Source: Microgenomates group bacterium ADurb.Bin219
Lineage (GTDB): Bacteria > Patescibacteriota > Microgenomatia > UM-FILTER-40-11
NCBI GenBank assembly: GCA_002069945.1
Contig: MWCH01000006.1
Coordinates: 1-56,512, forward strand
Reading direction: 5' to 3'
Length of the DNA stretch: 56,512 nucleotides
The position numbers and the translations under genes were made by a program. How positions within the stretch are numbered: position 1 is the first letter of the stretch; each line of letters starts with the position of its first letter. The notes below the pieces were generated by a model. That model did not search any database, was not told the origin of the DNA, and saw only the letters and a program-made list of their open reading frames with translations. Positions 18,335 to 47,163 of the stretch are shown here, one piece after another.

Positions 18335-20214
<1,880 letters not shown>

Positions 20215-46144: not shown

Positions 46145-46777
46145 ATGAAAAACAACAAAAATCTGGCTTTGGCGGTATTGGCTTTGGCCTTGGTTATAAT
46201 TGCTTTGTTCATGGTCAATTGGAAGTTGGACCGGACCGGTAAGAAAAGTCCCGGGGAAGAAAAAGCGGTTTTGCCTTCGCCCGTTTATCAAAAGGGAATT
46301 CCCCAAAAAGCGGCGGTTCCCAGCGCCAAGGCCGGAGAAATTATTGTCGTTAACGCGCCGGAAGTTACAAAAAAGCTGGTTTGGGACGATTCCACCGCCT
46401 ACCGCAAAATACTTAAGGAAGTGATTGAAAATGCTTTGAAAGAGATGGGTTATGCTTTGACGATTTATAATCGGGCAAGTTTGACCGACGAATTTACCAT
46501 TCCGACCAGCAATAATCCGCCGGGAGCGCAAACTTCCGGTTGTACTCGTTTTGGGTTCCGTTGGGATAGCAATAAAGGCATGATTGAGGTTTTTTATCTG
46601 ATTGATTTACCGGACCAGCCTTGTGGCCAGGATAAATTTATGGTTCCGTTAATTAACGCGGTCGGTCAGGCGAACGGTCAGGTTTTTGAATGGTGGAAAA
46701 AGGGTTTGGCCAAGGCAAATGAAGAACAGGGAAGAAAACCGGATCCAACCGACTTTCCTTTAGCGGTAATTGAATAA
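46145..46777 (+). CDS. anchored hypothetical protein
   Basis: 210 residues with an N-terminal signal anchor (about 6-24) and a soluble extracellular domain (about 65-200). Its features are APEVTKKLVWDDSTAYRKIL, a KEVIENALKEMGYALTIYNRA helix-strand, and TRFGFRWDSNKGMIEVFYLI. One Cys pair (SGCTRF and QPCGQD) may form a disulfide. No family is recognised. It has its own promoter and strong ribosome-binding site. Confidence 0.6.
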   Translation: MKNNKNLALAVLALALVIIALFMVNWKLDRTGKKSPGEEKAVLPSPVYQKGIPQKAAVPSAKAGEIIVVNAPEVTKKLVWDDSTAYRKILKEVIENALKEMGYALTIYNRASLTDEFTIPTSNNPPGAQTSGCTRFGFRWDSNKGMIEVFYLIDLPDQPCGQDKFMVPLINAVGQANGQVFEWWKKGLAKANEEQGRKPDPTDFPLAVIE

Positions 46778-46825
46778 ACGCTTCTCTTTTGGTCTTTCTT
46801 TTGCTAAAATAGCCAAAGAAATTCC

Positions 46826-47000
46826 GGGCCCGTAGTATACCGGTAGAACGCCACTATGGCCCCGTAAGTTTTGGGCCGTTGGCTCAGTTGGTAGAGCGTC
46901 TCTATGGCATAGAGAAGGTCGCCGGTCCGATTCCGGCACGGTCCACTAAAATAACGGGGTAAACTTCGTGGAAGAGGGGGTCCGATTCCCCCCGGGTCCA
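46826..47000 (+). tRNA. interrupted tRNA-Ala-like gene, nested around tRNA-Ala (GGC)
   Basis: The 5' part (46826-46860) gives acceptor GGGCCCG, a D-arm and CCACU-AUGGC ending with anticodon GGC. The 3' part (about 46965-47000) gives GUGG, T-arm GGGGG-UCCGAUU-CCCCC, acceptor CGGGUCC with G3-U70, discriminator A and an encoded CCA. Between them lie about 104 bases that contain a complete second tRNA-Ala. CCCCGU...UUUU and AAAA...ACGGGG flank the inner tRNA and can pair. The D-stem has one A-A mismatch and position 31-39 is U-C. Either a tRNA broken by insertion, or a tRNA with an unusual insert. Confidence 0.55.
46873..46945 (+). tRNA. tRNA-Ala (GGC)
   Basis: A perfect 73-nt cloverleaf: GGGCCGU/ACGGUCC with G3-U70, D-arm GCUC/GAGC, anticodon arm UCUCU-AUGGCAU-AGAGA (GGC), variable AGGUC, T-arm GCCGG-UCCGAUU-CCGGC, discriminator A. 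CCA is not encoded. It sits inside the interrupted tRNA-Ala-like gene. Confidence 0.93.
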
Positions 47001-47163
47001 CCAAAATAAGGATAAAGGAAAAAGAATATTTAATTTTTCTCGTATTTCGGTATTTCTTATTCCTAATTCTTCTGGCCATTTACTTTAACTCCTATAAACT
47101 TTTATCTTTTGTTTTTGTTGTGCTTGAATTGCAGGAGAAGATCGTAGATGCTATAAGGTAATT

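Follow-up and report, generated by a model that had tools for sequence, protein, structure and literature searches.

A tRNA-Ala(GGC) gene nested in the anticodon loop of a second tRNA-Ala(GGC) gene, and its counterparts in related genomes

Group I introns interrupt the anticodon loop of bacterial tRNA genes. According to a 2014 review, bacterial tRNA genes are uniform apart from group I and group II introns, while archaeal tRNA genes include split and intron-containing forms, among them the products of intron transposition in the Thermoproteales (PMC4033280). Genomic islands also use the anticodon loop or the T loop of tRNA genes as targets, and function is kept after insertion; an attP fragment restores the same gene (Islander, PMC4383910). 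In the tRNA-dependent lysogeny of actinobacteriophages, a whole prophage enters through a tyrosine integrase at a common core of ~10 bp (Guerrero-Bustamante and Hatfull 2024, PMC10865867). The literature that we searched, mostly open-access, contains no description of one tRNA gene inside another. This agrees with a sequence-only reading of the locus presented here, which knew of no bacterial example; the arrangement does, however, recur in several other genomes.

The host is an ultrasmall bacterium. The nest lies on contig 6 of its 0.89-Mb, 22-contig genome (G000), rated 98.9% complete, within a window (the whole stretch of DNA analysed) of 56,512 nucleotides. ARAGORN and Rfam detect a perfect tRNA-Ala(GGC) gene, and sequence inspection shows that it sits within the anticodon loop of another tRNA-Ala(GGC) gene. 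The features of the nest are as follows.

46826–46860, + strand: 5′ part of the outer tRNA-Ala(GGC), positions 1–36 (acceptor strand, D-arm, 5′ strand of the anticodon stem, anticodon); 35/35 bases found at the same positions among 26 intact genes of relatives
46860–46865, + strand: CCCCGT, 5′ strand of the insert-closing helix, with partner ACGGGG at 46954–46959; from the predicted fold, arm shuffles p ~0.02
46861–46872, + strand: 5′ arm of the insert, CCCGTAAGTTTT; base-paired with its 3′ counterpart in the predicted fold; related arm in the Levyibacteriota nest
46873–46945, + strand: inner tRNA-Ala(GGC), positions 1–73, without encoded CCA; ARAGORN, Rfam RF00005 61.6 bits, 0 broken pairs
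46946–46966, + strand: 3′ arm of the insert, CTAAAATAACGGGGTAAACTT; ACGGGGTAAAC is common to the Levyibacteriota nest
46967–47003, + strand: 3′ part of the outer tRNA (3′ strand of the anticodon stem with C39 mispaired, variable loop, T-arm, acceptor strand, A73, encoded CCA); only positions 37 and 39 depart from the 26 intact genes

The inner gene matches RF00005 with an E-value of 5.7e-11 and spans 46873–46946 in the ARAGORN and Rfam calls; the genome yielded no other intact GGC tRNA. The outer gene has a seven-pair acceptor stem, read from the sequence as GGGCCCG/CGGGTCC with G3-U70, a D-arm GTAT..GAAC, an anticodon stem CCAC/GTGG around the anticodon GGC, and a T-arm GGGGG-TCCGATT-CCCCC; its body ends with A73 at 47000, followed by the encoded CCA to 47003. 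The sequence-only reading had recognized both genes, and the acceptor stem, G3-U70, anticodon and CCA that it listed for the outer one are all present. It had put the insert at about 104 bases; the nest stands, with corrected bounds, since the outer 3′ part begins at 46967 and the insert is about 106 nt long. ARAGORN run with intron options, a check proposed in that reading, returned the inner gene or nonsense only and missed the outer gene.

In the predicted fold of the 176-nt stretch, the inner cloverleaf and the outer acceptor stem both form, as do CCAC/GUGG, UUU/AAA and a GCCCCGU/ACGGGGU helix; an outer D-arm as such does not appear. The proposed complementarity of the flanks, CCCCGU and UUUU with AAAA and ACGGGG, is present in the sequence and formed in the fold. 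When both flanks were shuffled at constant composition, 38 of 2000 shuffles did as well (p about 0.02), and complementary flanks of a similar kind occur in the homologous Levyibacteriota nest. An H-type pseudoknot was considered from the arm order CCTG-CCCG..CAGG-CGGG, and we treated its two pairings as alternatives. The insert gave no intron or ribozyme match in Rfam at permissive thresholds, and a search for further copies of the 3′ arm in this genome found none, even with up to three mismatches allowed. The neighbouring 210-aa protein showed no syntenic relatives in 29 genomes.

With the uninterrupted outer sequence as query, full-length matches were obtained in many of the 374 genomes of the class, with E-values down to 2.3e-25 and 92% identity for the best intact genes of the outer type. 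In BLAST of the region against relatives, several genomes matched both outer parts with a gap of about 7 nt between them. Because intact full-length genes exist in relatives, the outer gene is, on these comparisons, a true tRNA-Ala(GGC) type split by about 106 nt and not a product of chance. The remaining partial matches to the outer tRNA came from other kinds of tRNA, from unrelated sequence, from a run of N or from the end of a contig.

In the 26 aligned intact genes, the loop of the outer type reads ATGGCAT and positions 31 and 39 are paired; the D-stem mismatch in GTAT..GAAC is normal for the type. The copy described here has two bases that are unique against all 26, U at 37 and C at 39, and both sit at the 3′ junction of the insert. 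As a result A37 is lost and a U.C mismatch stands in place of the 31-39 pair, so that the outer copy shows the loss of pairing and invariant bases, relative to intact orthologues, that is expected of a pseudogene. Since it differs from the intact genes at these positions only, the uninterrupted gene is ancestral and the damage confined to the junction.

As a rule a genome has either the inner or the outer type: where a pattern search detected the inner type, no outer-type gene was found, barring this genome and the Levyibacteriota genome. Two genomes of the same family yielded no outer-type tRNA-Ala, and the more complete of the two (G002) showed only Ala(TGC) among the tRNAs examined.

A pattern search of GTDB contigs found the Ala-in-Ala layout again in Ca. 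Levyibacteriota (L223, JACRFQ010000003.1), a nest that evidently is one sequence with that of genome G316 of the same class. The G316 nest consists of a related outer 5′ half, the arm CCCGGTACAATTT, a tRNA-Ala(GGC), the arm AAATTTACGGGGTAAAC and an outer 3′ half ending in CAGGTCC, which matches its own GGGCCTG. Both Ala nests have ACGGGGTAAAC(T/A)T and have lost A37, and they may have one shared origin. The outer gene of G316 has a ruined anticodon stem and, at the T-loop boundary, a second structured insert.

In one family of the class we also observed a dispersed, strongly structured repeat of ~70 nt, CCTGCCCCGTATAA..GAGGACGTAGACCTC..TACGGGG (L351, L352, L354–L359, and inside L228 at about 1530–1605, L350, L353 and L360), which is mostly intergenic and has no Rfam match. 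It also occurs exactly at the T-stem/T-loop boundary in several interrupted outer tRNAs. A search of the present genome for the dispersed structured element of family f17 found no copy.

The same layout is found for a second tRNA. A tRNA-Val(CAC) is nested in a tRNA-Val(CAC) in six genomes (G271, G209, G180, G212, G362 and G316), G098 has a decayed Val nest, and G377 and G155 have remnants. In G155 (L346, about 1474–1627), a tRNA-Val(CAC) adjoins a truncated tRNA 5′ piece with acceptor and D-arm only, followed by an orphan T-arm and acceptor strand; this is probably a further decayed nest. The Val inserts follow TTCACA, which corresponds to position 37 and thus to the intron position 37/38. 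An orthologous locus in two genomes of the same genus, filled in G271 and empty in G356, allows a direct comparison: the two loci align to the left and right of an addition of exactly 106 nt, and nothing is lost or duplicated at the insert. At the junctions, duplicated bases number zero in the six Val nests and one in the Ala nest described here. The loci in G209 and G180 belong to another family than the G271/G356 pair; their outer tRNAs are 93% identical and the neighbouring ORFs similar, yet inserts and arm types differ, which points to separate insertions. Arm complementarity within single Val nests is weak by shuffle tests, and we give it little weight.

Several regularities run through the nests, for which the searches covered Ala(GGC) and Val(CAC) with the inner anticodon left free in the patterns. 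The insert measures 99–107 nt as delimited in all of them, and the inner anticodon equals the outer anticodon in every nest, GGC for the Ala pairs and CAC for the Val pairs. The inner tRNA is never a copy of its own outer tRNA, with an identity of only 58–78%. Between G271 and G362, the inner tRNAs are 97% identical and the outer ones 85%.

Decay was scored by counting the non-standard pairs across the four stems of each tRNA. The score is zero for all ten inner tRNAs and likewise for four uninterrupted Val controls. The Val outers have 0 (G209), 1 (G271), 1 (G180), 2 (G212) and 6 (G362) broken pairs, and in G316, G098, G377 and G155 the outer 5′ half is lost, truncated or unrecognisable. Beyond the mismatch that is normal for their D-arm, the Ala outers have 1 broken pair here and 3 in G316. 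Perfect inner tRNAs next to variably broken outer ones are the pattern expected if the inner gene works and selection on the outer gene was lifted at different times. The sequence-only reading had named degenerate outer halves in relatives as part of what would mark a broken tRNA with an insertion, and such degeneration is largely what the other nests display.

Among the described systems, phage tRNA-dependent lysogeny is the closest in logic. It differs in involving a whole prophage, whereas the block in the nests is ~105 nt long and carries a single tRNA; neither an integrase nor a duplicated core was found for it. Genomic islands share the target loops and the retention of function, but islands restore the same gene, whereas the nests hold a complete, divergent tRNA and leave the outer halves split. 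Like archaeal split and intron-containing tRNAs, the nests show interruption at 37/38, precise entry and complementary flanks; unlike them, they come with no splicing endonuclease that we could find, a full tRNA in the interruption, and outer halves that usually decay. Precise, duplication-free entry at 37/38 is intron-like, the rescue logic resembles tRNA-dependent lysogeny, and the site resembles known integrase subsites (PMC4383910).

Group I introns likewise interrupt the anticodon loop, and this genome provides an example in a tRNA-Asn gene. In contrast to them, the nested insert has only about 33 nt of non-tRNA sequence, and the 5′ exons of the Val nests end in A, not U. The Intron_gpI covariance model gave no match in 46700–47150 at E-values up to 10, whereas it scored the tRNA-Asn intron of the same genome at 64.8 bits. 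That intron lies in what we read as tRNA-Asn(GUU) (L147, contig 2, about 138858–139152), called tRNA-Val(aac) by ARAGORN.

The genome holds further unusual RNA genes. Another group I intron is located at the 3′ end of the 16S rRNA gene (19851–20159 of the window); the 16S and 23S genes are about 7.6 kb apart, with a tRNA-Ile between them on the opposite strand. A second tRNA-Gly(UCC)-like gene carries a 29-nt hairpin insert at 31/32 (L145, contig 11, 27979–28079, minus strand), and an uninterrupted Gly(UCC) gene is present on contig 8. ARAGORN found no tRNA-Asp in this 98.9% complete genome; the gene may be interrupted or lie in an assembly gap.

The explanation that we favour, with a probability of roughly 0.7, is that a tRNA-bearing block of ~105 bp inserts site-specifically and supplies a replacement tRNA, after which the outer gene decays. 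The block would comprise a complete tRNA gene flanked by two short arms, C-rich and G-rich. Its target would be the anticodon loop of a tRNA gene whose anticodon matches, and its entry would break the host gene while providing a substitute at once. Only blocks that bring a tRNA of the same anticodon would survive, since the insertion destroys the host tRNA. The inner tRNA would be co-transcribed with the host gene and presumably released by ordinary tRNA 5′- and 3′-end processing, the arms may serve insertion or processing, and the outer gene, no longer needed, would decay. We infer mobility of the block, and also that the inner tRNA is the functional one. Neither a mobilising enzyme nor a target duplication nor a parent element turned up for the block. 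The perfect cloverleaf of the Val outer in G209 counts against this explanation, and at the present locus the nearly unchanged outer halves outside the junction count against a long-dead outer gene, unless the insertion is recent.

An origin of the nests by recombination between neighbouring or duplicated tRNA genes, through tandem duplication, deletion or gene conversion, would need no special element, and it would fit the tRNA-Ala genes that often stand side by side in relatives and the shared anticodon of inner and outer genes. We consider it unlikely, as the inner genes are too divergent from their own outers, recurrence is seen in site, length and arm motifs, filled and empty sites differ by precisely the insert, and the inner tRNAs of G271 and G362 are closer to each other than their outers are. 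Less likely still is the proposal of the sequence-only reading that the inner tRNA is processed out and the outer halves, held by CCCCGU/ACGGGG and the cloverleaf, are rejoined as in split tRNAs, giving two tRNAs per transcript. The canonical intron position of the Val inserts, their entry without duplication or loss, the complementary arms and the outer exons, nearly unchanged here and perfect in G209, speak for it. The joined loop would, however, be defective here, with U.C at 31-39 and a pyrimidine at 37 unlike 26/26 intact relatives, and only the G209 Val outer would join to a complete cloverleaf; most outers have broken pairs or lack a half. The archaeal-type tRNA endonuclease PF01974 reached at best 12.9 bits here against a cut-off of 27 and gave no match above it in four other genomes, a simple motif scan of this genome found no RtcB motif, and a spliced outer tRNA would need no inner tRNA of the same anticodon. 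A related version, in which the block is a tRNA-carrying mobile intron that enters precisely at 37/38 of a matching tRNA and of which fresh copies can be removed from the transcript, so that one precursor yields two tRNAs, the inner through end processing and the outer through joining, strikes us as just as doubtful. If true, this would amount to a type of tRNA splicing for which bacteria offer no known case.

We regard it as very improbable that a phage or island carrying a rescue tRNA once entered the anticodon loop and that the nests are what deletion has left of it. The same logic has been demonstrated in mycobacteriophages (PMC10865867), and the anticodon loop and T loop, both of which carry inserts in G316, are known integrase subsites (PMC4383910). 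But independent deletions would not be expected to leave a constant 99–107 nt, and there is no duplicated core. The insert is too short to encode an integrase, and none of the five neighbouring proteins matches an integrase family. Inspected pattern matches in viral contigs and BLAST against phage records yielded no nest, only unrelated sequences and ordinary tRNAs. A one-off broken tRNA or a misassembly, with no wider meaning, could be suspected from the 22-contig assembly and the damage to the outer gene at the junction; it is hardly credible now that layout, site, length and arms recur in independent genomes, which largely refutes it.

These observations make a question testable, namely how a short block locates a matching tRNA gene and enters at 37/38 without target duplication. 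With the nests, the rescue logic of tRNA-dependent prophages would reach down to a block as short as about 105 nt. Repeated insertion of tRNA genes into tRNA genes, under a same-anticodon rule and with an empty site for comparison, would be a new route of tRNA gene replacement in reduced genomes.
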